Of a stretch of DNA of 64,000 nt, positions 18,160-56,603 are shown in pieces. The notes under the pieces were generated by a model that was not told where the DNA came from, did no database searches, and was given only the letters and a program-made list of their open reading frames with translations. Position 1 is the stretch's first letter. Every line of letters starts with the position of its first letter. The DNA lies in the NCBI GenBank assembly GCA_947034885.2, contig OX344752.2, forward strand, positions 4,216,001 through 4,280,000, read 5' to 3'. Source of the DNA: Thuidium tamariscinum. Its lineage: Eukaryota; Streptophyta; Bryopsida; Hypnales; Thuidiaceae. A program made the position numbers and the translations under genes.

Positions 18160-18283
18160 GTAGGATCACACATTCCCGATTAGAGACCCATTAGCAATAA
18201 GGGAGAAACACCCAATATCACACCTGTACCTTGCATTGGACCTTCTAAAGACTCATCCAAAACTGTCCCTAAACTGTAGTTGA
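18160..18283 (+). repeat. repeat F left part, copy 1
   Basis: AAGGGAGAAACACCC, TGTACCTTGCA, ACTCATCCAAAA and CTAAACTGTAGTTGACCCC match the region 26388-26502 in order. In both copies the repeat is interrupted at the same TTAA (here worn to TTGA) by a TTAA-type element. It resumes at 20158. Confidence 0.65.
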
Positions 18284-20157
18284 CCCCAAAAGTTCTTTGA
18301 CTATGTTTTCACCAAAAAACCTCCAAAACTGCCATTTCTAACACAAGTACCAAATATTTGAAAAATATTGTTTTTAGACACATGTAACCATAGGATCTTG
18401 TAGTAGTTTGGTTTGAAAAGATGAAGAAAAAATTTCACAAATTTCTATTGTGTGGATTACAAAATATTAGTGTTTGAAGTTACAAAAATCCTTTTTTTAC
18501 CACTGCAAAAATCTGGGCAATTGCACTTTACAATCTCACATTTGCGTGAAAAAAAGTCCAAAATAATAATGCTTCTTTGGATTCATTTTCCAAGTGAAGT
18601 TGGCTACATGCTTGAAAATTTTCAAATCATTTGGAATTTGACAACATATAGACAAAAAATAGTAAGTAAAAAGAAGTAGAGAATGATTCAAAATACTAAA
18701 TTGTTAAAAATTTATTTTTGAAATTGAAACTTGTCAATCCTAAAGGTCCAAATGTTGTAATAAACAACCTACACCCAATGTTTTTATTTTTTTCCAAAAA
18801 TATTGAAAATTGAGTAAAATATAGGACTTCAAAGTTTATTTAAGAGTAGGGAATCTATAACTACCTACAAACTAAAACTCTTCATAACTTTTAATTCATT
18901 AGTCCAAATGAAATGATTCAAAGCTTTCCACATATATATAAATCTATAAAACCAATTTCAAATTTTTATTTTAAAAAAATCAATTTTTTCTAATCTGCCC
19001 AAACTACCTAAGTTGAGAAATAAACAACATATCATGCAATAACTTTTTAACCATGCAGTCAAAAGTCATGAAATTTGTTGGGCTTTAAAGATATTCCTCG
19101 TCCACATCTTCTATTAACCCCTAAAGGTTTTTGACTATGTTTTCACCAAAAATGCTCCAAAACTGCCATTTCTAATATAAGTGCAAATTTTTTTCTTAAA
19201 ACACATTTTTGACTCATGTAACCATAGGATCTTGTAGTAAGGTGGTTTGTAAACATGTGGAAAAAATTTCAAAAATTTCCACCGTGTAGATTGCAAGATA
19301 TAAGCATTTGAATTGACAAAAATTGTTTTTTTATCCTTGCGAAAATCCGGGCAGCTGCACTTCACAAGGTCACATTTGTGTGAAAAAAATTTCAAAATGG
19401 TAGTTACTCTTTGAATTCATACTTCAATGCAAGTTGGCTACATTCTCAAAAAATTTCAAACCATTTGGAATTGTACAACATATAGGAAAAAATAAGTAAG
19501 TAGAAAGAAGTAAAAAATGAGCCAAAATACTAAATTGTGAACATTTTATTCATGGAATTGAAAATTTTCAATCCCAATGGTTTAAATGTTGTAATAAACA
19601 ATCTACACCTTCTGTTTTTATTTTTTTCCAAAAATATGAAAAATTGAATTAAATGAAGAATTTCAAACTTTTTTTGTACTGTAGAGATTCTGTAACTGGC
19701 CGCAAACTACCCCAAACTCAAAATCTTCATAACTTTTGACTCATTCATCGGAATGGATTGATTCAAATCTTCCCATGTCTGTATAAACCTAAAGAACCAA
19801 TTTGAAATTTCACTTTTAAAAAATAAGTTTTTTTGAAGAAGTTTTTTCAGCTGCCCGGACTGCCCGCCGAGTAAAGAAAACAACATATCCTGTCATAGCT
19901 TTTTAACCGTGAAGTCAAAAGTTATGAAAATTGTCGGGCCTTAAAGTTACTCCTCGGGCACACATTGTATCAAAATTTCAAATAAAAAAAATAAAAAATC
20001 CATCCGTAGTGAGCTGCCCAAAAAATTTATAATCTCAAAAAATGATGTTCAGGGCTTTAGGGGTTAAATTTGGGTCTCCAAATATATAAATCTCTAGTCA
20101 CATGTACCTGCCTGAAACAATTATGTCCCCCTAAAAGGCATGTTGGTCCTTTAGGGG
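18284..20157 (+). mobile_element. older TTAA-type (piggyBac-like) element, split by a younger one
   Basis: The left end (CCCCAAAAGTTCTTTGACTATG-like) follows a worn TTGA at 18280-18283. The right end, GGTCCTTTAGGGG, meets TTAA at 20158-20161. The left 800 bp follow family A in order (TTTGACTATGTTTTCACC, the CTGCCATTTCTAACA block, CTCATAACTTTT, AACTTTTTAACCATG). The last 85 bp are closer to family B's end (CATGTACCTGCCTGAAACAA). A complete younger family A element sits inside (19118-20063). No protein encoded. Confidence 0.65.
19118..20063 (+). mobile_element. TTAA-type (piggyBac-like) family A element, complete
   Basis: 946 bp from CCCCTAAAGGTTTTTGACTA to GGGCTTTAGGGG, with TTAA on both sides (19114-19117, 20064-20067). 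CCC termini next to a duplicated TTAA are the mark of piggyBac insertions. The interior is AT-rich and shared with 52611-53549 and 55648-56599, with no transposase, so it is non-autonomous. It is inserted in an older relative. Confidence 0.75.
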
Positions 20158-20260
20158 TTAATGTGTTTACCAAATGCCTAACTCTAATTTGTTGACACAT
20201 ATTAAGGAGACATACCAAAATCTAATTGGCTCACTATTGATTTTAGCAATGTTCAAACTT
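20158..20260 (+). repeat. repeat F right part, copy 1
   Basis: Starting at the TTAA, CTAATTTGTTGACACA, AAAATCTAATTGGCT and ACTATTGATTTTAGCAATGTTCA match 27930-28028 (TAATTTGCTGACACA, AAAATCTGGTTGGCT, ACTGATTTTTGCAGGGTTCA). Confidence 0.65.
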
Positions 20261-20953
20261 GGGGGCATCTATTGAACAGTTTTAGTGGTCTAGGGAGCCA
20301 ACACCTTGGAAAATCATAGAAATTACATACGGCATCCGAATTTATTTATTTATTTTGAATATTCATGACTTTTACTCGCTTTTACTAGAAAAATATTAGT
20401 TTAAAAAAAAGTTGCCTCTAACTATGCTAAATTCCTTATTTTAACGGTTTATGGTGTTTACACCGTAATTAGGGAGGTAGAATTGAAGGAGAGGTTGTCA
20501 TTCTTTTCCATTATTTGAATTTGGAATGGAGTTATAATGAGTTTCCCAATAGGAAGCTACCACATGTCTTTCATTTTATGTGCCTTAATGAACAAGAAGT
20601 ACTTTGTCAGTAGAAACTAATGAGAAGACTTTGAGGTCGGATATGGATCCAAACCAACTTTTGCCTTTGTAAATTCACTATTAACTCTTTGCTTGCTATA
20701 AAACTACCTAACCTTCAAGTTATCTCCCTCATTTCTATCTTTCTAACTACCTATGTATTTGTTTTGTCCCATCTTTTAGCACATCATATCTAAAACACCT
20801 TAAGTGATTGGTTTTGGGTGCCTCCACCTTACATCTCTTGTAAAAATGAAATATATAGATGTAATTGCCTAATCATTCTTATTCTTCTTAATGTAAACTA
20901 TAGATGTTGTATTAAATAATCATATAAACAACCACTAGTATAGAGATGATTGG
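20261..20953. other. AT-rich spacer, no gene seen
   Basis: No coding, RNA or shared repeat noticed. Confidence 0.4.
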
Positions 20954-21150
20954 ATTGGGCAAAAGCACACTAGGAGTAAGGTAAACTATCCCACTATGAT
21001 CAAAATTGAAGCAAGCCCATTGTAGGCAAAACTATAATAGAAGTATACAATATAGTTCTCAAATATACTCTACCATTACAATTTTGCCCACAATGGGCTT
21101 GCTTCAATTTTGACAACGATGGGGTAGTTTATTTTATACACCCAATCGCT
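20954..21150. mobile_element. MITE family J (hairpin-forming), copy 1
   Basis: The two halves are inverted over about 60 bp each: TCAAAATTGAAGCAAGCCCA on the left pairs with TGGGCTTGCTTCAATTTTGA on the right, with GTAAACTATCCC/GGGGTAGTTTA and GATTGGG/CCCAATC outside. Transcribed RNA would fold into a long hairpin. A related, shorter copy is at 51690-51800. Confidence 0.75.
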
Positions 21151-21514
21151 TGTTACAAAGTTACATGAGAGTATTTCTATCTTTTTGAGCAAGTTGGAGT
21201 GCTCTCAAGTCAATATTGTTAATCCCTAAATCATCTAAAGGCCATTAGGAGGCTTTGCAACTATGTTTGTAAAAAATTTGGAATGTGAATTTGACTAATA
21301 GTTTATGAACACTAAAGAGCCTAGATGATTTTTCCATTGAATTAGCCAGTGCAATCCAATCAAAAAAATGATTAAGTGTGCAATTTTTAGTGAATTTTAG
21401 GAAAATGAAGAAGGTGTTCAAGTCCATCACTTCACATCTTTGTACCTTTTTTCCTCACATCAATGCAAACAAGTCATGTGATGTATAATATAATTAGGAG
21501 GCGAGGCAAGTTTA

Positions 21515-21960
21515 GGGCATCTACAATGCATCCCCTATAAAAAAACTTGTAATGGCAAGTATAGGGGCTGAAAGCGAGGCTTGCATTGTGCCGAGCCCAT
21601 TTTTGTCAGAGATGCCCCAATGCATAGCCGCTACAATGATTTTTGTTGCATGGTCAATTGAACAAGTGGCGTGGTTGCTGAAATTTTGGGGTAAATTTTG
21701 TCAGTGCTATGCAATTCTCAAAGTATGCTCTGTAGCTATAACCTATTTCAATCCTCTGGACCATCATGACAACCCCTCAAATCAACTTCTAGGGGTAGGC
21801 AAAAAGATAGAATTTGCCGATCTTGGGCTATCCTTTATAGAGACCATGGAATTATAGCCTCCCATCACTGTTGCATTGGAGCGTGCATTTAAATCCAAAT
21901 TTCTTTTCACACGTTAGAGTAACGTTGCCGTCCCTTTTGTAGTAAGGATTGCAGATGCTC
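21515..21960 (+). mobile_element. PIF/Harbinger-type MITE (Tourist-like), copy 1
   Basis: 446 bp with TTA duplications (21512-21514, 21961-21963). Ends GGGCATCTACAATGC on the left and GAGCATCTGCAATCC on the right read inward. The GAGCATC terminus and 3-bp duplication match the Harbinger element at 2997. It is closely related to 43996-44457, sharing GCAAGTA.AGGGGCTGAAAGC. A frame of 101 codons (21552-21857) is also partly open in the second copy but lacks any known domain. Confidence 0.85.
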
Positions 21961-21963
21961 TTA

Positions 21964-22201
21964 GATTAATATTACAAAATTTCTAACAATCGATCTTAAA
22001 TATGTGTACAATAGCATTAAACATATTTACCAATACTAACTATGTACAAAGTAGTAAGTTGTATACTATTTTTTGAATGGGTAGTGACAAGAGTATTCAA
22101 TCAAAAGACTTTCCAAGCAATAAACTTATTTCAGTTAAATAATTCCACCCTACAACTACCCTACTCCCTTTTATAATTTCTAGAAATATTGTCAATATGA
22201 T

Positions 22202-22205
<4 letters not shown>
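21964..22205. other. AT-rich spacer, no gene seen
   Basis: Nothing recognised. Confidence 0.35.

Positions 22206-22267
<62 letters not shown>
22206..22267. repeat. (AT)n microsatellite
   Basis: About 31 uninterrupted AT units. Length is likely to vary between individuals. Confidence 0.97.
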
Positions 22268-22269
<2 letters not shown>

Positions 22270-22597
22270 ATATTCATATCAGCTCAACGGCAAAAAAGGG
22301 GATCAAACACAATCTATGGCTCCAACTATTCAAGGGGGGGTCATAGGGGTCTTTATCATTTCATGGAATAGCAATGAGCAATAGCAATCATAGTTTATTG
22401 CAATTTATTGTTTAGAACTTTTTTGAGTAATTTGAAATCTCAAGGCAATGAAAGGATTGAAATTTTCATGTATTGATGTTATGCTTGGTAATTACAAATC
22501 TAGGCACTTCATGAAGAGCAACTACATGTCAATACCTTTTTTGTCATTGTCATTGTTACACCGTTGTAGGTCTTCACTATGTGTCAACAAGGAAGAT

Positions 22598-22836
22598 CAT
22601 TAGATGTTTTTTGGGAGATTAGAAGACTGTTTCAGGCCTGTTCCCTAGGCTGCGAACAGTCAGAATAAAATATAATAAAAAAAAATTTAATTATTATTTT
22701 TTAAATTATTTTTTAAATATTATTATCTGACGTGGCAGTCTCTCGACCACGTCAGATAGCAGATGTGGCAGTTCCCGACAGTGTTCCCACAGTTGGGAAC
22801 TCGCAGTCTTGTAAATTGCTGAAAAAACATCTAATG
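22598..22836. mobile_element. unclassified MITE, 239 bp
   Basis: Ends are inverted: CATTAGATGTTTTTTGGGAG on the left and CATTAGATGTTTTTTCAGCA on the right read inward, continuing with AAGACTG and then GTTCCC on both sides. Inside is a second inverted pair, CTGACGTGGCAG with GACCACGTCAG. No clear target duplication. A lone end of the same type lies at 13608. Confidence 0.7.
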
Positions 22837-25136
22837 TATTAGTATCGAATTGTTTTTCACAACCTTGCCTACTTAGATAACTATACCTTTTACCAATTGA
22901 ATCTCTAGGACCAACATAATGTACTCTAAATATGCCTTTTGAAAAAGACAATAAACTCCAATTATAGACATCTTAAATCCATTTTTGTAGGAAGAAAACA
23001 AATGTGCTCTTTGAAAGCATTCTTGCCTACTATTGCATGCCTTAAGTACATTATATTGGCAATTAACCTCAAATATTCTCTTGCCATGTTTTGCCATCTA
23101 CACTCTAAAATAGTCATTTCTAATTGCATAGACCTAGATTTGGAATGAATCATTTTACACATATTCAATTGTATAATTTTGAATTGTAGTATATTGTTGT
23201 TGAACGATAATGGCTTCAAGATCTTGACCACGCATATTGGAAGATTATAGTGTTTGAAAATAGGAAAACAATCTTTATAGAGTCTACCCAACAAGATGCA
23301 TTAGCTTGCCACCTTTTTTTTTTAAACATATGGATTTAGTTGGCAAACATTATGCACTCAAGGATTGGAAATTTTCTCCACAAAAGCATAACATATAGTA
23401 GCTTCATACAAGGCTACCTTTTTGTTGTGTCCAACCCAACATTGACAAAGTCCATCCAAAATATTTGGATGAATAGCGGAGGAAGAAAGTTAGCAAAGTT
23501 AATCCTTAAAATATGTAAAATTGTGGCAAAGTCAGTCATTAACTATATTTGATTGGCCAATGACTAAATCATTCACTATATTGTATTTGGAGTCAAAGTC
23601 ATACTAGAGACATATCCTTTCACTATATTCCTACAATTCTTAATTGTACAACTCCTTCCTATTATATTTTCTAACACATTTTGACAAGTGTCATATAAGC
23701 TACTAATGGATGTGGAATATTCTACATTATTTTGTCCAAGTGAGGATAGCTATATTTTTTGTTGCTAAATGTTATGATGTTTGAAATGTAGTTGGCAATT
23801 TTGTAATTTTTCCCTTGCAATGGAAATTTGTTTCATTTGTTTCAAAAGAAGAAGAAAAAGATTTTAAACTTGTCAACTCAAGTACTCCTTAGGTAATCAT
23901 AGGCCAAATTTGGGAGGCATCAAATGAATACAGGTCATGTAAAAAAATGCAAGGTTAAGCTCTTCAAAAAATCAAGCTATACACTAGGCAATTTTATTTA
24001 TATATTCCTGTTTATGATAAATTTCCCTTTGATTCAAAATTCCAATAGTGAACACATAGATATATGTTTATTCATCACATTTGCAAGAAATAAAATAAAT
24101 TTCTATACATTATGCAAAATCAAGGCCAAAAGTGTTCTTTTAGTTGTGTGTCACCTTATTAGCTTGGTGTAGAGGCTAGTTTTTAGACAAACGATGGCAA
24201 AGAGGTCAAAATCTTGTAGGTTGGGAAATTTTTACTCTAAATAAAAACATTGCCAAAATCCATAGTGCCAATGGGCTCTTAGAGTGTTGTTGTAGACACC
24301 TCGAAACTAGGTTTTTTGCTACCTTCATCGGTTGGCTATTTTTTTTCTCTTCCTTTGTATAGCCTCTACAGTTAATGTTCAAATTACCTTGGTCAAGCAA
24401 GGAAGTTCTTATATGGGATGCCTTAAACATGTCAAGCACCATAACTTTCTCTCTTGGGTAGCAAATCATTTTTTGGAAGATTTGAATTCATGTTTGTTGT
24501 AAAGGCAAAAAAAAAAATACTAATGTTCAAATTTTACTTTGTAAAATCTTACTTGAGGTTTAAGAAACTCTAACAAAGTTTTTTGTCCTTTAGGAGTTAA
24601 TACATCATTACTAAAGGTTACAACTCTCCTAAATTGCATCTTTGCAATTAAAAAAAGACTTTTTATTGGAAAGGGTTAAATTGTCTAGGCTATTTGCACC
24701 TACAAACTAAAGTCTATGATAATCTTTAATGCCTCTATTACGAGATCACGACAATAATTGTACCATCTTTGTACAAAAAAAAATTTGGAAGAATCTCTAT
24801 GAATTTGGAAGGGAGAATTGACCCATAATATAATCTTCATCTTCATAAAGACATTGGAATTTAGTACTAGTAGAGATGAAATTTTTCCTGAATTTGCTTT
24901 GCAGTAGCCATTTATATTCTTTTCAATTTTTCTTTTAGATGAAATGAGTCTTTTTAGTGATTTTTTTTTGTGGAGGATAAATGTTTTTTTGCATTTCACT
25001 TGATTGTTTCGCATAAAATTGCTAAATATATGTCTTATATTTGTTGTTTGAAAGATGAAAATTCCAATTTTAAACGTGAGCGACAATGAAAAGAATCTAA
25101 TTAACCCTTGAAGGTAGATTTGAAGTATAAATTGAG
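22837..25136. other. AT-rich spacer, no gene seen
   Basis: Short open frames on both strands overlap each other and lack homology. A TTAA-type right end, GTCCTTTAGGAGTTAA, is visible near 24587-24602 without a matching left end. Confidence 0.4.
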
Positions 25137-25707
25137 AAAAATTTCCACCTTTTAGGGTAGAGAGAAAAATGAAAAAAAGAAGTTTTATTTCAAAATTCAA
25201 CTGTACAAATTTGTACTAAACAACTATTAGTAGTAATGTATAGAAAGATTTCATAAATCTTGCCCATATAGATTGAAAGATTATAACATTTGAAATTAGA
25301 ACACAATTTTTTTTTAAATTGCCCAATAGAGCCTATAAACTCCCCCACCTACCCACCCCACCCTTCTTTCACATGCTAAGAATTTTACTCTATACATGGG
25401 GTTTTTTTACACTTGCATCTTGTATCATGTAACTTAGATATCTACCGAATTTCATAAGCAAGGATTTACAAAGGAAGAGTTTTTCACATACTACCCAAAA
25501 TTACTCAAGCTATGTAAAAAGTTTAGGATAGCATAATTTTTTATTTGGAAATCCAATCAAAACAAAAATTACATTTCTACTAGTAGAGGGAGAAAATGTT
25601 CACACCTTGAATCAAAATTTCATAAACATTTGACCAAACTTCATTTTGGATGAATCTATCCAAAATTGTTATTGTGTACATTGAACGTACACTCAAGGTC
25701 CTTTAGA
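25137..25707 (+). repeat. dispersed repeat S, copy 1
   Basis: CAAAATTCAACTGTACAAAT, ACAAATTTGTACT, ATTGAAAGATTATAACATTT and the CACACCTTGAATCAAAATTT block occur in the same order at 54711-55197. Both copies end near GGTCCTTTAGAGGTTA or a worn form of it, so S may be another TTAA-type family. Confidence 0.55.
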
Positions 25708-25739
25708 GGTTAGGTTATTCTAATGGCACTATTTGCCCC

Positions 25740-26272: not shown

Positions 26273-26387
26273 TTTGCCCCCCCCTGCCTGCCACTGCTGG
26301 CTGAGCAAAGAATTTTGGATTGAAGATGGCCACCTACACAGAAGGGATTCATCAATAACTTGTGTCACTTGTTGATGAGAGAGTGGA

Positions 26388-26502: not shown

Positions 26503-27929
26503 CCCCTCACCGCCCAAGGTCCGACAGAGTGTCGCAGCAGCTTTCGGGGACCTAGTCAGAAATGGGCCAATTTTGGCGGATTATTGCAGAATCTTCCAAA
26601 ACTGACCGCATGGATGGAAAGCAACTTTCTAGGCGCTTTAGGAATCATAAATTGCATTCCTTTTGAACGGTGTGATGTTCAAGGATTTGAATCTGATCAA
26701 GGAAGACGAGGGAGTTCTGTCCGCTTTTCTCCGCCCTTTTGAGTACTTCACGATTTCTGCCTAACAGAGCACTGAACGGAATCATAAAAAATTTGGCAAG
26801 CATTTGTGCACTGGTATGACGAATGCCTCTACAAAATTTCAGGACCAATGGAAACTAAATGAAATCAAGATATGAAGAAGAAAGTAGGGAGGGCATGGGT
26901 TTTTGCTGATGCACTACCGGAACACACCGAATGCCACAGGATGGGTGACCGGATCTCTAGGTAAGCAAACCAGGGGGACCGACTCTGCGACTAACAGGCC
27001 CACATTCACAACATCTGGACTGTAAATTGGCTTTGTCCAATTGCACAATGTACATTACCAGAAACACTGAGGTAAGCACAAGAGTTCAAAAACACACTAC
27101 AGATGGCCGAAGCTGAAGATTCTCAAAATTGCATCCAACTAGTCCAGTCTGTGGTACAAGAACTTCTACAACAGCACAAAACTGAGGAAGCGGCACCTCA
27201 AACTAAACTCCGTCTGTAAGTACAAAATTTGCCTAATCGATAAGGCCTTCAAATCCCGTTCAGAATCGCTGTCACAATTTACAATTGCCTAGTCCACAAT
27301 TCAAGTCGAAGATGGCCCGGTGTCAGAGGCTGCTGCAGCGACAGTGAAATTCTACCTATGCCGCTTTCCCTTGCCGGCGCGTCCTCCGCTCTTGGAAGCC
27401 GATCTTGGGGAGTTGAGTTTCAGCTTCAAATTCAACAACCACGCTATACTCATCACAAGCAAGCAAGGGGTCAAATTATTGTGACAATCTAAGGGCCTAC
27501 CACTTCTGGCTATGAAGCTTTCCGAAGCAAGGTTTCCTCACGATCCCACTCCCTTTTCTAAAACTACCCTAGCAAGGACGACCACAATAGGACTCCATTA
27601 CCACTGCAACAAGGACTTGCACCTGAACGCAGTACTCCTGTGACGGAGTCGGAGCATCCAACGCTCAACTAACCATGACCTAGGAATGCCGGTCAGTTTT
27701 TGGACCGCAAGGACAAACCGCCATGTCCGTTTTTAGACCTCTTACGAATTGCAGCCCTAAAACAAACAAATTGTACTTCATCTGTTGCTGTGAGCGATGC
27801 TACAGTGTACCTAATCCCCGCACCCTCCATGTCCAGTAATCGCAACTGTGGAATTTTTCTGTCAGCGGTGCTTGGAAGCCAGTGAACAATTCCGTGTGGA
27901 CACATTTGGGCCCCTCGGGCGGTGAGGGG
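26503..27929. mobile_element. 1.43-kb TTAA-type (piggyBac-like) element, GC-richer family
   Basis: A perfect 13-bp inverted repeat, CCCCTCACCGCCC, forms both ends, flanked by TTAA at 26499-26502 and 27930-27933. Thirteen-bp CCC termini next to TTAA are the classic piggyBac layout. The interior is GC-richer than other families here and contains short open frames, but no DDD transposase or zinc-finger tail was recognised. It is therefore taken as non-autonomous. Confidence 0.75.
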
Positions 27930-28028: not shown

Positions 28029-28398
28029 TCTACAAAAATTGTATTAATTTGTCTAACATATAACACAATACTATAGAAGTTTGAAGAAAACATTGGTTGT
28101 GATTTGAAAGAAAATTAATTCAAAGTTTGTCATTATGAAACTCAATTTTTTGTGTGTTATACTTTGGAATTATGAGATATTTTGTCAATTTTTTCTCATA
28201 AGAAAAAATAAAATTGTACCTTGACATGTTTGTAACTTGGTTCACATCATTTCACATTTTTGCATACAAAAAATGATGGAAGTTGACATCAATAGAATTT
28301 AAAATATTCACAATTTGGCAAACATGTATATGATCTTTGAATATTTGATATTCACATGATATTTGAATATATTTTGGAATTGTGAGCATTGAATTGCA
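28029..28398. other. AT-rich spacer, no gene seen
   Basis: Nothing recognised. Confidence 0.35.
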
Positions 28399-29090
28399 TT
28401 AACCCCTAAATGCCCAAGCCTTTTCAAGTGTGTTTTGACTATGAATAAAGTGCATGGACTTGTAGTTATCCCTAGTGAAGCAAATTGATTTTTTTTCAAA
28501 ATCTAACCACATGGATGTTTAAAGAGCTTGTTTATTAGTAAGTACACAAATTTTGAGTACAAAATTGCATTGGAGTTGTGAGATTATAATGAGAGAAGAG
28601 TACATTTTCTATATTTAGTATGCTGCCTTTTCCCACAATGTTTCTCAAATTTGCATATAAATTTTTTGGGGGATTTGAGGTGACATGAACAACTACAAAA
28701 AGTGTTAGCACACTAAAATGCACTTCTAAAAAACTTAATTTCACATGAAAAGCTATTAAATTCATTACACAATCCACCTTGCAATTGTTGAAATGCAATT
28801 ATTTTTATAAGTAGAAATTGCAAAAAACTCCAAGTCAATAGTTGTATGTTTAAATTTTCAATGGTGAATATCATGAAAACACTTTCCTCTTTCCATTGGG
28901 ACCATTTTCAAAGCAAATGGATATGTACAATTTTTTAGATCTCAAATTAAGTGAAATTGCATAAAGCTAGGAAATGAAGTAAAATTGGCAAGCTTTACAC
29001 TTCACTTTTAGTACATGTAGGCCTTTGAAGACCTCTCAATAATCAAATATGTACTTTTTTCAGTGAAAAATGAAAGTTTTCAATAGTTAA

Positions 29091-29204
29091 CCCTTAAAAC
29101 TGCCCGAATTTTTTTTAAAAACGGGCACAGGAATTTAACTGCCCATTCAGAAATGAGCCTGAAATTTCAGATCGACCATATATGGTCGATGGGGCAGTTA
29201 GGGG
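29091..29204. mobile_element. 114-bp TTAA-flanked mini-element with perfect palindrome
   Basis: Bounded by TTAA at 29087-29090 and 29205-29208. Ends CCCTTAAAACTGCCC on the left and CCCCTAACTGCCCC on the right read inward, with several GGGCA/TGCCC inverted blocks inside. A perfect 20-bp palindrome, ATCGACCATATATGGTCGAT, lies at 29171-29190. Confidence 0.7.
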
Positions 29205-29268
29205 TTAACAAGAAGCCACCCATTAGTTTTTCTTGTTAATGCAATTCTAGTGGGTGGCTTCTTGTTAA
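29205..29268. mobile_element. 56-bp TTAA-flanked foldback element
   Basis: TTAACAAGAAGCCACCCATT pairs with the right arm GGGTGGCTTCTTGTTAA over about 22 bp around a 20-bp loop. TTAA is present at each edge (29205-29208, 29265-29268), the first shared with the neighbouring 114-bp element. The family B copy at 42.98 kb has only a single TTAA at the matching place. Confidence 0.6.
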
Positions 29269-29810
29269 GTAGATGTAGGTTTAAGATTGAAAGAAAAACT
29301 AAATGGTTAATAACTCTAAGATGGGATTGAAATTCCAATAATCTCAATGGTGAGATTGTTCTAGAAAGTAAACATAACCTTGTCCAACAATGTTTTTGAA
29401 AAATTACGAAAATTGCATTCAGAAATGAATCCTATAAGTTATTTTTTCAAGAAATTGTTTAGATTGCCTGAAAAACATGATTGTCCATAACTTTCTCATT
29501 ATAAGTCCAAATAGAATGAATCAAAGCTTCACATGTAGGCAAAAAAATATTATTTCAGAAAAAAAAAATTTAATTAAATTTTGACTTTTTGCCCAAAAAA
29601 ATTTCTGCCCGCCGAATGAAAATTTGGGCTTTTGTGGTAAAACTTTTGCTCCCTGTCACCAATTGAAATAAAAATTACATTCCCACGAAGATAATAAGTT
29701 TTTCTATCTTGTGAGAAAGTTTCAAAAGGTTTCACCAAAAATTGAAGTCATAGGAACCTACCCGAAATCCATTTTGTCCTCCAAGGGGACAATGGTCCTT
29801 TAGGGGTTAA

Positions 29811-33339: not shown

Positions 33340-33825
33340 AAAAGTAGCATATGGATGACAAAGAATCTTTCTATTTGAAACAAAAGTATATATGTTCATC
33401 TTTAAAGTGTTGTGTGAAAAGGGGACGTCTTAGACAATAGTTTAATTTCCAATGAGTACTTTTAATTATTTATATTGAAGCACATGATTCAAAATGTATC
33501 CAAATAGGTGATTTTTCTACACTTACCAATTCATCGTTTTGATGCTAAGAATTAGGGTTGGTCACACCTTCTCTCCATTCTCAATCTTCATAGAATGAAC
33601 ACGTAGCACCTTCTCCTTGAATTCTAAAGGGCCCATTCTTTGAAAATTGAGATTGAAATTTTTTGCTTCTCCTAGTTGCTCTTGTTTTTGACTCCATTAA
33701 TTCTTCATTCTTCTTCGTACTATTGTAGTAGAAGTTTCATTCTTAGAGAAGGTGTCACAACCATGAATAATTTTCAAAACTTGGTAGGGTTCTCATTTTC
33801 GAAGATGCAAAAGGGACCTACACAA
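33340..33825 (+). repeat. family C relic and spacer
   Basis: GGATGACAAAGAATCTTTCT at 33354 onward matches the start of the family C element at 35833. The rest is AT-rich without a gene. Confidence 0.4.
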
Positions 33826-33829
33826 TTAA

Positions 33830-34140
33830 CTCTTGAAGGACAAACTCGTAGCTGTAGAAATTGTGCATTTTGATATTGTGTGACATCATTGACTTTGAAT
33901 AAGCCAAATATACTCATAAGAAGTCAAAGTACATGTATATTTCCATCAATTTTTTGTCAACTCATACATTTTTTTGTCCACTTGGACACATTTAGTCAAT
34001 TTGGACTTGTTAGTTCCGACGTTGTTTTTATGTACTAATATTGAAAAAATCTCCCCTTTCCACTTCTAACACCAAGAATGGATAGTTGCATTCGTATCCT
34101 ACAAGGAAAGATTCTTTGTCATCCATCAGACACTAAATGT
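33830..34140 (-). mobile_element. TTAA-type MITE family C, inverted copy
   Basis: Starts after TTAA (33826-33829) with CTCTTGAAGGACAAACTC, the inverted form of the right end seen at 36054. It runs to CAAGGAAAGATTCTTTGTCA near 34120. The far end is unclear. It is longer than the 222-bp copy at 35833. Confidence 0.5.
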
Positions 34141-35832: not shown

Positions 35833-36054
35833 TCCTTGAATGCCGCCGCGAACGTTTGGCGTCCGCTGAATGACAAAGAATCTTTCTTTCCAAGACAAAA
35901 ATGCAATTTTTCATCCTCAGTATTGGAGGTGGAAAGGAAAGATCTTCTACAATTTTTTGACTTTCAATGCATATATTTGGCTTTTTCAAAGTAGGTGATG
36001 TCACACGATATCAAAATGCATGGTTTCCGTGGCCACTGATCCGTCCTTCAAGGG
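35833..36054 (+). mobile_element. TTAA-type MITE family C, 222 bp
   Basis: TTAA at 35829-35832 and 36055-36058. Ends TCCTTGAATGCCGCC on the left and CCCTTGAAGGACGGA on the right read inward. The motif TGACAAAGAATCTTTCTTTC is shared with relics at 33.35, 49.07 and 60.01 kb and, inverted, at 34.1, 49.4 and 60.5 kb. Confidence 0.7.
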
Positions 36055-40959: not shown

Positions 40960-41400
40960 GAGGTCAAAATAAAAGGCCACTATAGTTTCAAATATGGAGC
41001 AACTTGCATTGCAAAAAAGTGGGCAATTGCACTTTACAAGGTCACACTTGCATAAAAATATGTCTATATTAGTGGTACTCCTTTGGATTCATCTTTTAAG
41101 GCAAATTGGATATATGCTTGTAAATTTTCACATCATTTAGAACTATACATGTAGAGAAAAATAATAAGTAGAAAGAAACAAAAAATGATATAAAATACTA
41201 AATTGTTGATAATTTAGTTATGGAATTGAAAAATGATGATCCCAATGGTTGTAATGTTAATATAAACAATCTAAATTCTACAAATTTTTGTTCTCAAAAA
41301 ACAATCAAAACTCAATTAAATAAAAGATTTCAAAGTCTATTTTAGAATAGGAAATCCATGAGTGCTTGCAAACTAAAACTCCTCATAATTTTCATCCACA
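40960..41400 (+). mobile_element. truncated TTAA-type family A fragment
   Basis: GGGCAATTGCACTTTACAAG, GGTCACACTTGCATAAAAA and AAACTAAAACTCCTCATAAT match the middle of family A (for example 18500-18890). Both ends are missing. Confidence 0.55.
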
Positions 41401-42341: not shown

Positions 42342-43486
42342 CCCTAAAGCATCTCAATCCTTTTTTGAATTTTTGCACATTTTTACTTATAGTTTTGTAC
42401 AAATATATCATAACCAAAATTTAATGAATTTGGTCATTAACCCCTAAAGGACCATTGTTCCCTCGGGGGACAATTTGGAATTCGGGCAGGTTCCGTAGAC
42501 CTCAATTTTTAATGAATCTTTTTGAAACTTTCTCATAAGATAGGAAAACTGATTAGCTTCATAAGAATGTATTTTTTATTTCAATTGGTGACCAGGAGAA
42601 AAAGTTATACCACAAAAAGCTCAAATTTTCATTTGGCGGGCAGAATTTTTTTTGGCAAAAAGTCAAAATTTAATTTTTTTTAATTTTTTTTCTAAAATAA
42701 TATATTTTTGCCTACATGTGAAGCTTTGATTCACTCTATTTGGACTTATAATGAGAAAGTTATGGACAATCTTGTTTTTCGGGCAATCTAAACAATTTCT
42801 CAAAAAAATAACTTATAGGATTCATTTTTGAATGCAATTTTCACAATTTTTCAAAAGAAATTGTTGGACAAGGTTATGTTTACTTTCTAAAACAATCTCA
42901 CCATTGGGATTATTGTATTTCAATCCCATCTTAGAGTTATTAACCATTTAGTTTTTCTTTCAATCTTGGACCTACATCTACTTAACAATTTTTTAAAGAA
43001 TGAAAATCAATTTTTTTTTGTGTGAATTTTTTTTCCTAGACTCTCAACTCAATTTCTTAACACAAAAAATTATAAATTCAAAGTCTATAGTGCAATTTTT
43101 TAATACAAATTCCAGTCAAAGTCATCTGAAATTGCAAACCACAATTCAAAAAAATTTGTATTTCCAACTTTGAATGCTCATATCTTCCAATCTGTACGGT
43201 CAAACTTCATGAAATTTTTACCACTTGATCTCAATCAAGTTAAGTACAAGATCCTACAGTTCGATTCTTTAAAAAAAAAATTTTGTTTTCTTAGATGAAT
43301 GCAACAGAAATGGCAGTTTTGAGAGGTTTTTGGCAGAAAAAAGGCCTCGGTCCACTAGGGGTTAAGGAATGTTGTCTTCTCTAGATTCAAGTGTTACATT
43401 TGATAAATTAGAAGTTAATTGGATGAAACAGTGCCTTGAAGGCCTTTGTTCATTGTCCAGAATATGGACGTTGGAGCACTTCAGGG
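42342..43486. mobile_element. outer TTAA-type MITE, split by a family B element
   Basis: CCCTAAAGCATCTCAATCC after TTAA (42338-42341) is the inverted partner of the right end, which reads CCCTGAAGTGCTCCAACG inward from TTAA (43487-43490). Without the inner element and one TTAA it is about 220 bp. Confidence 0.6.
42441..43361 (+). mobile_element. TTAA-type (piggyBac-like) family B element, complete
   Basis: 921 bp with TTAA at 42437-42440 and 43362-43365. Ends CCCCTAAAGGACCATTGTTC on the left and CCCCTAGTGGACCGAGGCC on the right read inward. The right 200 bp (ATGGCAGTTTTGAGAGG, AGATCCTACAG) resemble the corresponding end of family A (ATGACAGTTTTGGAGCGG, AGATCCTATGG). The left 550 bp match 29270-29806 inverted. 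No coding capacity seen. Confidence 0.75.
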
Positions 43487-47566: not shown

Positions 47567-47567
47567 A

Positions 47568-48786: not shown

Positions 48787-48826
48787 TAACCCTAAATGTC
48801 CACAAGGATGTTTGGGGTTTCCAATG

Positions 48827-49063: not shown

Positions 49064-49069
49064 TTTCCA

Positions 49070-49250
49070 ATGGATGACAGAGAATCTTTGTATGTAGGAT
49101 ACAAGTGCAACTATTCATCTTTTGAATGTTGAGTAGAAAGGGGAGATCTTTTATAGTACTTAGATTTCCTATGAATGTTTTTTGATATTTTTAAAACCAA
49201 TAGATTCTTGCAATATCAAAATGGATGATTTCATGACTATCCTTCAAGGG
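49070..49250 (+). mobile_element. TTAA-type MITE family C fragment
   Basis: GATGACAGAGAATCTTTGTA to CTATCCTTCAAGGG, then TTAA at 49251-49254. The left end is not clear because it abuts the Mutator-like MITE. Confidence 0.5.
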
Positions 49251-49254
49251 TTAA

Positions 49255-49560
49255 AGGACAAACTGGTGACTATAGAAATCACTCATTTGGATACAATGGG
49301 AATCATTGGTTTAAAAAATAAATAAATAAAAAACATTCATGGGAAGTCAAAATACTATAGAAGATTTTCCTTTTCTATACAAAATTTCAACAATGAATAG
49401 TTGCATTTTTGTCCCACAAGAATAGATACTTTGTCGTTCATCACATACTATATGACATCATCTACTTCTTTTTTTAAATGCTTATTGGAGATCAAACTAT
49501 TGTGCATGATCTCCCCTTTTTGCATAAAATTCCAAAGATGAACAATTGCTCTTCCATCCA
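49255..49560 (-). mobile_element. TTAA-type MITE family C, inverted, tail-to-tail copy
   Basis: From the same TTAA (49251-49254) the sequence continues as an inverted family C copy: AGGACAAACTGGTGACTATA, then ATAGTTGCATTTTTGTCCC and ATACTTTGTCGTTCATCAC. A further worn unit follows to about 49560. Confidence 0.45.
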
Positions 49561-50909
49561 ATATTGTATATAGTTTCCTTTACCTTTGAAAATCAATAGT
49601 CTTATAAACAACATTTATAAGTTGTGGTTCTTGAAATTTCAGCCCTCCACACTCACTATAAGGAGCCCTCCAAATTGATTGTTGTCTAAAGCATGTATGA
49701 AATTGTTGGGTTTAGTTGAAGGTTGAGACACCTTATTCCTTGAAAAGAAGATAGGCAAAGATAAAAGCACCAATTTCACAATAAAAACACTCAGTGTGCA
49801 ACCATGACAATATTTTGCTTGGTCTTTTTAGAATAAAATGCAAGAAAGTTTTAGAATTCAAGGTGTAGAGAGTTCAATTTTGAGGTGTTTGATAATTAAA
49901 ATATTGTATAATAGATGTCTATGTGTTGTAACTCTATTTGGATCAACTAATTAATCATATCACTTTATTCAAAGGTAAAATACTAGTTTTAACAAGAGGG
50001 TCAATATTAAACTCTAGTTACAATACATTTACATTTGTTTTACAAAATTTGGACATGTGAAATCTTAGCAATGAACTTTCTATACTTTGAATTCTAAAAC
50101 ATTCTTGCAATTTTTTCTAAATGGAAAGATGTATTCATTGAAAATTCCAAAATGTGTGTACAATTGAATTTTAAAAATTCACTAGTGACAATTCTCAATC
50201 AATATTCTTGTAATGTCATAAAATTCAACACTCAAAGATTCAAGAGACCTTTAATGTATACATAAGATCATAGGTACTTATACATTTGTAAAGTCAACAT
50301 GCATCTCTTTTGTAGGTTTATGATATTTTTCCAATTGGATGCCCAAATCAAAAGTTATATTGCCTTAGACTTTTAGGGTAGCCCATGTAGCTTTGGGTAG
50401 CATGTGCAAAACTCTTTCAATAATTTTGAAATTTGGCAAGGATGCAACTTGCATGATTCAAGATGCAAATGTAAAAATAACATTTATAGTGTAAAAATCT
50501 CACTCCAGTTGTCGATGAAGTCTACTGGTTGTGTCATGATAAGGCTGGAAAAATCCTTTTCTTCTATCTTCAAACAATATACAATAATCTTTAATTCATA
50601 CTGAGTCAAAGTTTTTGAAAAAATTTCCACACATTCCCATAGTAGTCTAATACAAATCTATACAATTGAATTTTGAATAAAAGAACTTTCTTTTTTTGTT
50701 TCTTTCTCACTACCCTAGAAATTGAAGACTTTCCATAACATTTACTTGAAATGTACCTCAATCCTCCAACGGTTAATATAAAAAGTTCACTAGAAATACA
50801 ATTTTTTTTCCCTATTGAAATTGAAGTTTGCTAAGCATGATGGGGATTCCACAAGAATCCAATGATGTAAAAGAAATTGATTGCATGGCAATTGCCAAAG
50901 ACCACTTTT
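49561..50909. other. AT-rich spacer, no gene seen
   Basis: Nothing recognised. Confidence 0.4.
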
Positions 50910-50926
50910 GAAAATGGGAGTGTTTG

Positions 50927-51110
50927 ATACAATATGGGTTCATTCCCTAGTGCTTGCTACTAGATTGGGTGATAGTATAGTTTAGACTACACTGACCTGA
51001 GCCTTGTCTCTTTATGTAGTTTCTCTCCTCCTCCTTTGTCCAGCCTATTAGGCTTGGCTGCTTTGTACTCGATGTTTTGCAATGGAATTCCATTTTTTCG
51101 GGAAAAAAAA
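50927..51110 (+). mobile_element. 5'-truncated retroposon (LINE-type 3' end)
   Basis: A perfect 17-bp duplication, GAAAATGGGAGTGTTTG, flanks it (50910-50926 and 51111-51127). The insert ends TTTTGCAATGGAATTCCATT, then TTTTCGGG and eight A, a typical plant LINE 3' terminus with poly-A tail. Only 184 bp remain, all untranslated. The perfect long duplication indicates a recent insertion. A SINE using the same tail is an alternative. Confidence 0.8.
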
Positions 51111-51338
51111 GAAAATGGGAGTGTTTGTATTGGAACACCAAGGTATGTGCGAATCTCTTAGTCAGGCCAGCTGTACAGTACAGTACTGTCCAGTACTATA
51201 CAGTACAATACATGGAGTGAGAGCCGAGCTTATTCCTTTCCCAAGTGGGGTGGGGGACCGCCTGTCCGGGGTTTTTTGGGCGATTTGTCTTCAATTTGCA
51301 CCAAATTAATGGACCCAGCAGTAGGCCCTTAGAAAATA

Positions 51339-51429
51339 CTTTATCCGTCCCATTAAAAGCTTCCCAAAGTTCTCTTGCAAAAGAGTGTAAATCAACCTAA
51401 TTAAGAAGCTCATAGTGGGACAAATGGAG
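51339..51429. mobile_element. Stowaway MITE (Tc1/mariner type)
   Basis: 91 bp flanked by TA (51337-51338, 51430-51431). Ends CTTTATCCGTCCCATTAAAA on the left and CTCCATTTGTCCCACTATGA on the right read inward, close to the Stowaway consensus CTCCCTCCGTCCC. Confidence 0.85.
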
Positions 51430-51689
51430 TAAATAGTTAAACCTAGAATGGAATCATAAAAAAACTTCAAATTAAAAATAATCTTGGATGAAATCACCAG
51501 TTTGTAGATGAAAACATAATTATGGATATGTGATATGTAGTGGCTACTATATTAGACCAATAGAGAAGAGAGACCAAAGTATGCAAGCCCAAGTGGGAGC
51601 CTAAAATTAGGAAAAACTCCCCACTTTAGGGCGAGCCAGACTCCACTCAATCTTCCTGTGAGTCATCCCATTACAGACCAAATGGGAGG

Positions 51690-51800
51690 AGATCCTTGTG
51701 GGTCAAATTCTATTGGTGATATACATTTAAGAACTTGAATGTACACCACTACTACAATCTGACCCACAATGGGTCTCTTTTCATTTATTCTGAAATGGGA
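51690..51800. mobile_element. MITE family J, copy 2 (partial hairpin)
   Basis: TTGTGGGTCAAATTCTATTG pairs with CTACAATCTGACCCACAATG. The right half (ACAATGGG, then GGGATAGTTTACC) resembles the right half of the copy at 20954-21150. Confidence 0.55.
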
Positions 51801-51969
51801 TAGTTTACCTTTAATTAGTCTGGAACCAAATGATGTCGAACCGCTTGAGAAAGAGAGCAGCCTTGTCAGGAGAAAGTTCGCAAAGCTTCAGGCATGCCAC
51901 TCGAGCGTGGTCAGTGAACGCTTCCCAGTCCAATTCAGTTTTGGGTGCTGAGTGGAACTGAATATCAAG

Positions 51970-52570
51970 GCACTGGAGTCAAGCGGCGGTTACAAAATGA
52001 TTCACGTGAGTGGGGACTGGCAGCCCTTTTTTCTTACTTTTTGAGAACGTGCCAAGATGGTGATCACTTAAAATTTGTTGGAGCATTGTATTTCTACATT
52101 CATCCGTCTTTTGGACATGAAAACATCTGTCCATCAAGGTAGGTACACCCAAAAGTGCCACTTATTCATACTGTGCCTAGTTCATGTTATTAGCTAGTTC
52201 ATATTTTTATGCAGTCTTGTTGGCAAGTGAAATCATGTTCTAACGCACCAAAGAACGCAAGATTTGGATACCGTATGCAGAAGTTATTAACAGTCAAAGT
52301 CTGTTTTTGAAAGCACCATCTACAGCCTGTGAACATGACTGATTTTGGAAATGTATGCGCATTGGAGATGGTGCTTTTAGGAACAGGGCACTTTTGGATG
52401 TACCTACTTCATATCCATACACTTTTTCACCCAAATTTGGTGACTTCATCTATGTTTGAAAGAGAATTGAAACAAATTTGGCAAAAAAAGATTACTTTAA
52501 TCTGGAAAAAAAAAACATTTATTTTGAAATGGTGCAATTTGGCTTCATGGTGCTAGAAAAAAAAAGGGGG
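51970..52570 (+). repeat. dispersed repeat H, copy 1, split by a MITE
   Basis: TTACTTTTTGAGAA, GCCAAGATGGTGATCACTT, CATCCGTCTTTTGG and, after the MITE, ACACTTTTTCACCCAAATTT and GGTGCAATTTGGC match 58300-58570. The break at 52136/52410 corresponds to an uninterrupted CCATCATA in the second copy. Confidence 0.75.
52137..52409 (-). mobile_element. 273-bp MITE (AGGTAGGTACAC family), copy 4, inverted and nested
   Basis: AGGTAGGTACACCCAAAAGT on the left and AAGTAGGTACATCCAAAAGT on the right read inward. The interior is the reverse complement of copies 1-3. Here the flanks are CA rather than TA. It interrupts repeat H, whose other copy shows the empty site. Confidence 0.85.
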
Positions 52571-52610
52571 CAAGTGCAAAGGCGACCTTTGGGCATACGT
52601 GGCATGTTAA

Positions 52611-53549
52611 CCCCTAAAGGACCAAACTGGATTTTTTGGTAACATAGCGATTTTGTGTAGTTCACTACAGATGGATTTTTTCTTTTTTTTTCTTTGAATT
52701 TTTTTTCAAACATGTGCCCAATGAGTAGCTTTAAGGCCCAAAATTTTTCATAACTTTTGATTACATGCTTGAAAAGTTATTGCATGATATGTGACTTTCT
52801 CTGTTCGGTGGGCAATCTAGGTAGCTTAAAAAACTTCTTCGAAAATTAAATTTTTGTTAAATAAAAATTTGAAACTGGTTCTTTAGATTTATATAGACAT
52901 GGGAAGATTTGACTCATGCCATTTGGATTAATGAATGAAAGTTATGAGGAGTTTTAGTTTGTGGGTAGTTTGTAGGAAGTTATAGATTGTCTAGTCTAAA
53001 ATAAACTTTGGAGTCCTTCATTTAATTCAATTTTTAATATTTTTGAATACAAATAAAAATATTAGGTGTAGATTGTTTAATATAACATTACAACCATTGG
53101 GATTGGCATTTTTCAATTCAATAAATCAGTTGTTAACAATTGAGTATATTGAATCATTCTCTACTTTTTTCTACTTACTATTTTTTTGTACATGTTGTAC
53201 AATTCCAAATGATTTGAAAATTTTCAAGCATATAACCAACTTGAATTGAAGAATGAATCTAAAGAGTTACAATCATTTTGGAAATTTTTTCATACAAATG
53301 TGACCTTTTGAAGTGCAGCTGCCCGGATTTCTGCAATAGGAAAAAAAGGATTTTTGTAACTTCAAACACTAATATCTTGCAATCTACATGGCGGAAATTT
53401 TTGAATTTTTTTCTATATGTTGTCAAACTAGTGCACTAAAAGATCCTATGGTTACATTATTCAAAAAAAATTCAAAAATTTGATAGTTGTACTAGAAATG
53501 ACAGTTTTGGAGCGGTTTTGATGAAAACATTGTCAAAAACCGTTAGGGG
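52611..53549 (-). mobile_element. TTAA-type (piggyBac-like) family A element, complete
   Basis: 939 bp with TTAA at 52607-52610 and 53550-53553. Ends CCCCTAAAGGACCAAACTGG on the left and CCCCTAACGGTTTTTGACAA on the right read inward. Reverse orientation relative to 19118 and 55648. AT-rich, no transposase. Confidence 0.75.
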
Positions 53550-53553
53550 TTAA

Positions 53554-53860
53554 AAAGGAGTAAAAATAGGGTCCTCCCCTGCCTTTTTCATTGGTTCAGT
53601 TTTTCAATAGCTCTTATTCTTTCTCCTTTTTTTTTAACAACTGGGCAGGGCCCATTGCTCTTGATTTTTATTTTATTTTAAATCCACTGCAAAACACCGA
53701 GTAAGGCTCGACAGAAACGTAGAGAAGAGAGAATTCTTTCTCTGTTTTGGCTCGTTTCTTGTCTGTGTCCGGCTTCGGCTGTTTCTGTTTTCTTTGCTGT
53801 TTTTACTGCAATGGGTTCTACCCAATGTTAAAAAAAGGGGAGTAAAAGTGAAACCAGTCT
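53554..53860. other. spacer, no gene seen
   Basis: Slightly GC-richer near 53700-53800, with no recognised product. Confidence 0.3.
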
Positions 53861-53939
53861 ATTAAGATACTCCGTAACTTAGTACGGTGTTGCAGTGGCA
53901 TTGCAAAAAAGATACTCCGTAAATCTTATCTGCCAAGGA

Positions 53940-54615
53940 ATGATACAGTGGCTCCCCAAAACAAATAATACAGTCGCTCTCCAGAACGAATTATACAGTG
54001 GTACTCCAAAAGGACTAGGAGCATCCTCAATGTGTCCTTAAGAAAAAAGCACTGCAATGGCAAGTTCTACACAACTTGACAAAACCCTGCCCCAATGCAC
54101 TCAACACCCCTCATGTTACTTTCAAGGCCGCGGCATTTCTTGGCTCCCACTCAACAAAAATTGGCCATTTGTTGTGCCTTCCAAACTCTTCTACATTTCT
54201 CTGACAACACCAAGAATAGTGACGATTCTAAACCCTCCTCACTTCGTGGACCTTGGCATTCTATTTGTTGTCGCTGCGTCAACAGCAAGGAACTATAGCC
54301 GAGTGTTTGGGGTTCTAGGTATTGTTGTAGCATTGAGGCACCTGCAACGGCAAGAGACTCAAAAGACAAAGGGAACACAATCTTATTTGTTGTAGTGGCA
54401 TTTTTATGTGTGGAGGATTGAAGATGCTCTAAGAGAGTGTCTCTGAAAAATGAATAATATAGTGGCTCTCAAAAAGGATTAACAAAGTGGCTCTCAAAAA
54501 AGAATATTATAGTGGCTCTCCAAGAGAAATAAATATAGTAATGGAGCTCTTTAAAAGGATGCAGTGGCTTTCAAAAAGGATGTAGTGGCTCTCCAAAGGA
54601 ATATAGTGGTTCTCA
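53940..54615 (+). repeat. degenerate minisatellite (AGTGGCTCTC units), split by a MITE
   Basis: Units of about 20-30 bp with the core ATAGTGGCTCTCAAAAAGGA or variants recur about three times before 54018 and about eight times after 54430. A Harbinger-type MITE sits in the middle. The units on the two sides are alike, so the array was there first. Confidence 0.75.
54018..54429 (+). mobile_element. PIF/Harbinger-type MITE inside a minisatellite
   Basis: About 412 bp. Ends GAGCATCCTCAATGTGTCCT on the left and GAGCATCTTCAATCCTCCAC on the right read inward. CTGCAATGGCAAGT and TGCCCCAATGCA near the left end are shared with the MITEs at 21515 and 43996. The 3-bp duplication is unclear (TAG and TAA). 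Confidence 0.75.
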
Positions 54616-54710
54616 AAATGTTTTGTACAATTAAAAAAATTGTCAAAGCTAATTGAGGAATTTGAGGTTTTAACTCCTATAAAGTATTGAGGCACATTTT
54701 GCACATAACT

Positions 54711-55197
54711 TGTGAAAAATTGCCACTTTTCAAGGTAGTGAGTCTAAATTTGAAATTTATTTATTTTTTCAAAATTCAACCATTCAAATTTGTACTTAGT
54801 ACTATACTATTAAGGGAATGTATGGGAAAAAAAATCCAAAAACTTTAACCGCATGGATTCAAAGATTATTATGTTTGAAGTTAGAACAAGGCAAATAGAC
54901 ATTAATCCCTCCTAAAGTGAGAGTTTTACACTACACATGTTTGTTTGTTTTTACAGCTGCATCTTCTATCATGTAAGTTTTATACATGCCAAATTTCTTG
55001 AACTCTATCCAAAATTCAAGGCAATGTAGCTTTTGATCTTAACACGCAATAAGAAAAAAAAATAATATTCCTATTGAAGGGATACATGTTCACACCTTGG
55101 GTCAAAAGTTTGTTAATATCCAACCCAAATTAACTTTGTAGGAATTGATCCAAGATTTCTTGTACATATTGAATGGACATTTGGGCCTATAGAAGTT
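54711..55197 (+). repeat. dispersed repeat S, copy 2
   Basis: Matches 25137-25707 over most of its length (CAAAATTCAACCATTCAAAT, ATTCAAAGATTATTATGTTT, CACACCTTGGGTCAAAA). Confidence 0.55.
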
Positions 55198-55643
55198 TAA
55201 AATAGCATTTCACACGTACTTAAACAATTTTATACAATTGTATCAATTTCAAATTTAATTCCTAGAAAATTTGGCATTTGTTTTGGAATAGTTTTCCTCA
55301 AATTTTATACAATGAAATTTTAATATACAATGAAATTTTAAGCAATTATTCAAATATCCTATTCAAAAACAAAATTTGTATTTATGGTGATTATTAAAGC
55401 AAAAAAATAATTTTAAATTGATTAGACAAATTATATAAGTATTTTTGAAAATTTTAATATTTTTATTGTTTTTATTCACAATTCATAATTTAATCTCTTC
55501 AAATGAAAATTCTTGAATAAAAGTTATAAAAACATATTTTGTTGTACATCTAGGTTTTGTCCCTTGAAATATTTGGGTCATTAGAAGTTTAAACAAATTT
55601 TTCATTGTATTTATTTTTAGACCATAGTATTGATGCAATATGG
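55198..55643. other. AT-rich spacer, no gene seen
   Basis: Nothing recognised. Confidence 0.35.
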
Positions 55644-55647
55644 TTAA

Positions 55648-56599
55648 CCCCTAAAGGTTTTTGACTATGTTTTCACCAAAACCGCTTCAAAACTGTCATT
55701 TTTTAAACAACTATCAAATTTTTTTTAAAAACACAATATTTGACAAAAGTAACCGTAGGATCTATTAGAGCACAGGTTTAAGAATATGTTGAAACAATTT
55801 CAGCAATTTTCACTATGTAGATTGCAAGATATGAGTGTTTGAAGTGACAAAAATCATTTTTTTACCACAGCGGAAATCCGGACAGCTATACTTCAGAAGA
55901 CCATATTTGTGTGGAAAAATGTCTAAAATGATTGTAACTCTTTGGATTCGTTTTTCAAGTGAAGTTGGCTACATGCTTGATAATTTTCAAATCATTTGAA
56001 ATTGTACAACATATAGGAAAAAAATAGTAAGTAGAAAGAAGTAGAAAATGAGCCAAAATACGAAATTATTAACAATTTATTTATAGAGTTAAAAGAAGAA
56101 AATCCCAATGGTTGTAATGTTTTGTTGAACAATAAACACCTAATTTTTATTTTTATTTTTATTTTCAAAAATATTAAAATTTTAATTAAATAATGAATTT
56201 CAAACTTATTTTTGTAGTGTACAAATTTTCTAACTAGCCAAAATTACCTCAAACTAAAAATCCTCATAACTTTTGAATCATTAATCAAAATGAAATGATT
56301 CAAAGGTTTCCACTTAGATAAAAATCAAAGAAACCAATTTCAAATTTTAATTTCTTACAAAAATAAATTTTGAAGAATTTTTTTTTGGTGCCTGGATTGC
56401 CCACTAAGTAGAGAAATTACATATCAGCCAATAACTTTTTCACTATGTAGTCAAAAGTTATGAAAATTGTTGGGCCTTAAAGCTACTCCTTGGGCACATG
56501 TTGTGTAAAAATTTCAAAGAAAAAAACCAAAAACTCCATCTGTAATGAGCTGCCCGAAATCACTATGTTGCCAGAAAACGCAGTTTGGTCCTTCAGGAG
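55648..56599 (+). mobile_element. TTAA-type (piggyBac-like) family A element, complete
   Basis: 952 bp with TTAA at 55644-55647 and 56600-56603. Starts CCCCTAAAGGTTTTTGACTA and ends GTTTGGTCCTTCAGGAG. Same layout as 19118-20063; only its right end differs slightly. Confidence 0.75.
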
Positions 56600-56603
56600 T
56601 TAA

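Follow-up and report, generated by a model that had tools for sequence, protein, structure and literature searches.

The piggyBac element of Trichoplusia ni has CCC ends, targets TTAA and encodes a transposase with the catalytic aspartates D268, D346 and D447, and piggyBac transposons excise without a footprint through hairpin ends. Here we analyze a 64,000-bp stretch of the moss Thuidium tamariscinum (C4:4216001-4280000, hereafter the window), whose genome assembly comprises 19 contigs and 363,211,507 bases. An initial sequence-only reading had listed seven TTAA-flanked, piggyBac-like non-autonomous elements in it, to be explained either by piggyBac amplification in a plant lineage or by convergence of an unrelated transposase. 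Our results make it nearly certain that the window elements are miniature inverted-repeat transposable elements (MITEs) and internal-deletion copies, that is, non-autonomous derivatives of resident cut-and-paste transposons of the piggyBac superfamily.

The piggyBac label is not new in plants, because, in their accessible text, PMC4438587 places PiggyBac among the superfamilies in all groups studied, land plants included, PMC6890710 tabulates 1,230 PiggyBac copies (122,417 bases) in a fern genome and PMC10004981 names PiggyBac among the MITE superfamilies of angiosperms. The available portions of PMC10140906 and PMC10813416 name plants for piggyBac without detail, and that of a 2025 survey (PMC12732532) calls piggyBac only occasional in plants. 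PMC10619864 was discarded as a source, as the word in its accessible part is 'piggybacking'. The moss shares the superfamily label with the angiosperm MITEs and fern entries; what it adds is complete elements with a transposase gene, copies that are nearly identical and empty sites in related sequence. The literature searched, with most subscription journals outside its coverage and some papers available only in part, describes, as far as titles, abstracts and accessible text show, no transposase-bearing, recently mobile piggyBac family in a moss.

A genome search for piggyBac transposase genes between the same kind of termini, as the sequence-only reading had proposed, found them: genes with the PF13843 domain lie within TTAA-CCC ends. 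The profile gave 116 scored matches over the cut-off among 659 first-look candidates, 74 of the 116 being free of internal stops, and the transposase copies are spread over ten large contigs. No match was found in 14 control genomes, a weak control if these are mostly prokaryotes, as we assume. Full-length elements were then delimited in 20 ten-kb regions around transposase loci. All 11 copies of family A measure 5,096 bp (both TTAA counted) and carry TTAACCC at both ends; they differ from one another at 0-3 positions (mean 0.73 over 55 pairs), whereas their flanks differ. Families B (~5.09 kb, at least 99.7% identical) and C (~5.6 kb, 99.6-99.9% identical) have three copies each, again with TTAA-CCC ends and different flanks, and two single elements with paired ends and CCC termini measure 5,024 bp (L030) and 5,046 bp (L032). 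Two family-C copies, L033 and L034, are adjacent on C8 (C8:23929400-23946600) in opposite orientations, with 99.8% identical inverted stretches of ~1.1 kb alongside, reflecting either a recent inverted duplication or a feature of the assembly. The piggyBac copies in L026, L033, L034 and L036 lie at, or at most ~20 bases from, a repeat end GGGAGGAGGTCC that adjoins TTA and that we take to resemble a PIF/Harbinger MITE end.

From stop to stop, the open frames of families A, B and C span 1,023, 1,214 and 911 codons, with PF13843 at 533-932, 732-1110 and 438-808, respectively (E-values of 1.6e-76 to 4.5e-80). The proteins are 32.5-35% identical between families in their aligned parts, and those of B and C also align over more than 200 residues ahead of PF13843. 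Aspartate motifs lie at D676/D781/D897 in A, D885/D964/D1075 in B and D581/D660/D773 in C, and a CxxC...CxxC...C...C-like spacing is visible at the C-terminus of all three, a region with no profile match. The closest solved structures are piggyBat (9c0f) and 6x67/6x68, which we take to be the T. ni piggyBac transposase. The best of these matches is piggyBat, from Myotis lucifugus (E 1.1e-27), with both catalytic halves aligned, including the family-A aspartate motifs. With T. ni piggyBac the moss elements share PF13843, the aspartate pattern DE.M / D(N/R)FF / GVD..DQ, an apparently cysteine-rich C-terminus, the TTAA target and CCC ends. They differ from it in residing in a plant, in being 5.0-5.6 kb long and accompanied by thousands of MITE ends, and in having longer frames, of 911-1,214 codons, than the 594-residue chain of 6x67, the excess preceding the catalytic domain. 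PiggyBat likewise lacks both the much larger N-terminal part and the plant host. These ~400-700 codons before the catalytic domain may constitute a lineage-specific regulatory or DNA-binding part that animal enzymes lack.

The association of transposase and terminus extends beyond these families. Across 20 further transposase loci, we examined 1.2 kb where families A-C predict the 3' end; GGGTTAA in the right orientation was present at the expected end in 15; 200 shuffles gave 1.4 on average and 5 at most, and the opposite orientation gave 2.

Returning to the window, we could confirm the TTAA-flanked, piggyBac-like elements (Table 1). TTAA lies directly outside both ends of all seven that had been listed; the left ends read CCC in six and TCC in one, and the right ends, read inward, CCC in six and CTC in one (at 56599). 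One boundary was wrong, however: 29091-29204 does not stand alone but forms one end of 28403-29204, because the left and right parts of the latter match the 3' and 5' ends of a single transposase-bearing element. Most of the small elements agree with the proposed common terminus CCCCTNAAGG, but full-length elements are more variable, many having CCC(C/T)TNAANGCC or similar. Together, these piggyBac-type families occupy 9,235 of the 64,000 bases (14.4%).

Comparison of filled and empty sites bears directly on the target. The joined flanks of 36 automatically formed candidate pairs of ends were compared with the available sequence, and four insertions had an insert-free relative, paralogous rather than allelic, in which the two 4-bp units of the filled copy are represented by one. 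A single site, as the sequence-only reading had anticipated, was thus present in all four, although it read TTAA in three and CTAA in one. The TTAA cases are the MITE-2 copy 42441-43361 against L037 (88%, 230 columns), a family-B copy against a repeat lying close by in L038 (95%, 222 columns) and the inner MITE-1 copy 19118-20063 against L021 (88%, 401 columns). In the last case, the joined flanks of the inner copy align with a MITE-1 copy in L021 as far as its terminus, and 18284-19117 is 75-78% identical to MITE-1 copies. Among the full-length elements, TTAA is present on both sides of 11 of 11 A copies and of all six B and C copies. Many of the 36 automatic pairs are spurious, for example 52607-56603; the pairing pattern was asymmetric and missed the reverse-oriented family-A copies L023, L026 and L028, whose ends were read separately.

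Sequence matches tie the window elements to transposase-bearing relatives, at both ends for 28403-29204 and at one end for three other window families. The 3' end (L053) and 5' end (L059) of the family-D element C3:4295850-4301392, whose piggyBac domain contains one stop, match 28391-28958 (82%, 583 columns) and 29012-29208 (79%, 204 columns), respectively. Directly adjoining this derivative, at 29205-29270, is a palindrome with TTAACAAGAAGCCACCC arms. The element 26503-27929 shares terminal CCCCTCACCGCC with family B, whose 5' end its final 63 bp match at 76% identity (E 1.3e-4), an orientation with which that of a possible coding remnant at 27479-27535 is consistent; the element is probably an internal-deletion derivative of a family-B-like piggyBac with its coding strand on the minus strand. 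MITE-2 matches the 3' end of a family-E element near C7:1357340 (69%, 262 columns). MITE-1 matches an element with the domain at C9:16268282-16269427 over 144 internal columns (72%), with a second copy on C7 doing likewise, and the C9 element shares 20 terminal bases with MITE-1 copies L061-L063. Contig C9 is exactly 24,900,000 bases long, a figure that suggests trimming or padding more than a natural length. Within the window itself, protein scans of ten reading frames detected no piggyBac domain, and three transposases from the same genome, used as tblastn queries, returned only the 19-residue remnant piece at E 0.017 and a second match (E 0.87) that was taken as chance.

These links bear on the possibility that an unrelated TTAA-targeting transposase, such as that of Kolobok, made the MITEs by convergence. 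Kolobok elements are said to duplicate TTAA too, and for MITE-1 and MITE-2 an autonomous partner has been established only in part. Against this stand the piggyBac identity of the genes found between ends of this type, the derivation of 28403-29204 by deletion from an element bearing a piggyBac transposase, and the terminal bases and internal stretch that MITE-1 shares with the C9 element; although no search was aimed at Kolobok transposases, we consider convergence very improbable. The elements are genuine piggyBac rather than a look-alike because transposase genes, TTAA-CCC ends, empty sites and end matches to the window elements all occur in this genome. Of the two explanations originally offered, amplification of piggyBac in a plant lineage is the one supported, by PF13843 genes within TTAA-CCC ends, by piggyBac proteins as the closest structures and by empty sites with a single target.

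Several observations weigh against a piggyBac origin of the whole collection. Stops interrupt 42 of the 116 PF13843 matches; the candidate ends of L031 agree poorly, and this locus was excluded from the counts of complete elements; and 5 of the 20 further loci had no end within the 1.2 kb examined, the end of one of them, L056, lying slightly further out. For MITE-1, the most abundant family, just one end of a relative bearing a transposase could be located, the other (5') end of the C9 element being absent from the 1.2 kb examined, and L064 gave no blastn match to the window. MITE-2 did not match the examined 5' end of the family-E element. As to the target, the CTAA site belongs to a family-A copy compared with a tandem-like repeat in L019 (78%), and the inner MITE-1 copy 19118-20063, set against a window copy that is more distantly related and ends at 56603, gives GTAA.

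The abundance of the termini bears on a second alternative, that TTAA-CCC ends have paired up by chance in DNA rich in A+T. One short pair can arise in this way, 29091-29204 did join the wrong ends, and those of 35833-36054 agree at only 10/14. For the collection as a whole, however, chance pairing is rejected, with a probability that we regard as close to nil. In the window, TTAACCCCTNAAGG occurs 24 times with at most two mismatches, compared to a mean of 2.03 and a maximum of 6 in 100 shuffles, and TTAAYCCYT occurs 27 times, compared to 5.16 (largest 10). Genome-wide, CCCCTAAAGGACC is present 5,353 times (2,742 + 2,611), and 4,780 of these (2,453 + 2,327; 89%) are preceded by TTAA, giving the exact TTAACCCCTAAAGGACC of MITE-1 and MITE-2 ends; the reversed controls number 3 and 0, respectively. 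Near-identical dispersed copies, moreover, end exactly at TTAA-CCC.

Contamination of the assembly with foreign DNA such as that of an insect, the MITEs being unrelated plant repeats, would fit the better-known occurrence of piggyBac in animals, but it is scarcely credible given transposase copies in ten large contigs, a family-A copy that directly abuts a MITE-1 copy in L021, and flanks of 16 insertions in which the window's MITE families make up 6,821 of 75,847 bases (9.0%; 16 of the 20 regions, with L030, L031, L032 and L034 excluded, and insertion flanks may not typify the genome).

The age of the piggyBac elements is uneven. First-look candidates number 8,483 for MITE-1 and 6,535 for MITE-2, which are not verified copy numbers because only 40 of each were scored. 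Four of the best-scoring MITE-1 copies, each of 952 bp (both TTAA counted), are 96.2-99.8% identical to one another and 79.8-92.4% identical to the three window copies; MITE-1 therefore had both young and old waves. Among the matches scored, 39 further copies cover most of the length of 55648-56599 at 89-92%, and 42441-43361 is matched at 93% by a copy in L023; of the other 40 genome matches listed for it, 39 are at 95-96%. Because the full-length transposase-bearing copies are nearly identical, very recent jumping is indicated. We lean slightly toward a plant with an endogenous piggyBac that is still jumping, in which family A is active now or was very recently and related enzymes drive a very large expansion of MITEs. 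In the most likely mechanism, ordinary piggyBac cut-and-paste, several related autonomous families of ~5.0-5.6 kb encode a piggyBac transposase predicted to bind the CCC... ends and cut both strands; insertion into TTAA would duplicate the four bases, and one or several of these transposases would mobilize in trans the MITEs, which retain the ends. Anatomy, targets and recent copying are documented here; catalysis, the pairing of particular enzymes with the MITEs they move and present-day transposition are inferred.

Table 1 Features of the piggyBac-type families in the window
Feature	Position	Strand	Remarks
Broken MITE-1 copy	341..1337	+	Parts 341-965 and 1189-1337; 75-89% matches
Older MITE-1 copy	18284..20157	+	TTGA at the decayed left target site, TTAA at the right; interrupted by 19118-20063
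MITE-1 copy, 946 bp	19118..20063	+	TTAA both sides; nested in older same-family copy 18284-20157
Non-autonomous element, 1,427 bp	26503..27929	-	Ends CCCCTCACCGCCC, agreeing at 13/14
Possible remnant, last 19 codons of a family-B-like transposase	27479..27535	-	14/19 residues by tblastn (E 0.017), weak by itself
Internal-deletion derivative of autonomous family D, 802 bp	28403..29204	-	Both ends match C3:4295850-4301392
Shortened MITE-2 copy, one intact end	29262..29806	-	89.8% over 550 columns to 42441-43361; TTAA at 29807-29810
MITE-3, TTAA-bounded repeat, 222 bp	35833..36054	.	Ends alike at 10/14; weakest member
MITE-1 fragment	41008..41398	+	73-74% matches
MITE-2 copy, 921 bp	42441..43361	+	Ends CCCCTAAAGGACC / CCCCTAGTGGACC
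MITE-1 copy, 939 bp	52611..53549	-	TTAA both sides; 79% to other two full copies
MITE-1 copy, 952 bp	55648..56599	+	TTAA both sides

The two MITE-2 copies lie on opposite strands. MITE-3 has diverged relatives in the window at 60006-60204, 60369-60544, 49071-49440 and 33352-34140, and neither a transposase-bearing relative nor an empty site was found for it. Elsewhere in the window, a p23-type co-chaperone gene at 7016-7657 (+) is apparently intronless and encodes a Gly/Met-rich tail; among solved structures it is matched best by At3g03773, a name given to an Arabidopsis gene. Matches to NAM-associated (PF14303) and Plant_tran (PF04827) at 3704-4306 (+) and 5225-5680 (-), a pairing that we take to be that of PIF/Harbinger transposons, probably mark a Harbinger remnant. 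Scans of the window for rRNA and tRNA were empty.

The inference of a land-plant host from the window alone was borne out by 49 chlorophyll a/b-binding matches in the genome, among which Lhca3 is closest to moss structures. Its best solved matches are 7xqp, 8htu, 7ksq and 6l35, the first three presumably from the moss Physcomitrella patens. In its accessible text, PMC7884438 gives 6L35 as photosystem I of that moss.

The mechanism itself is not new, and piggyBac is one of the principal tools for gene transfer and insertional mutagenesis. Full-length copies as similar as these in a moss would offer a natural plant system for following piggyBac movement, its silencing and the spread of thousands of MITEs. 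They also bear on the origin of piggyBac in plants, whether by inheritance from early eukaryotes or by horizontal transfer.

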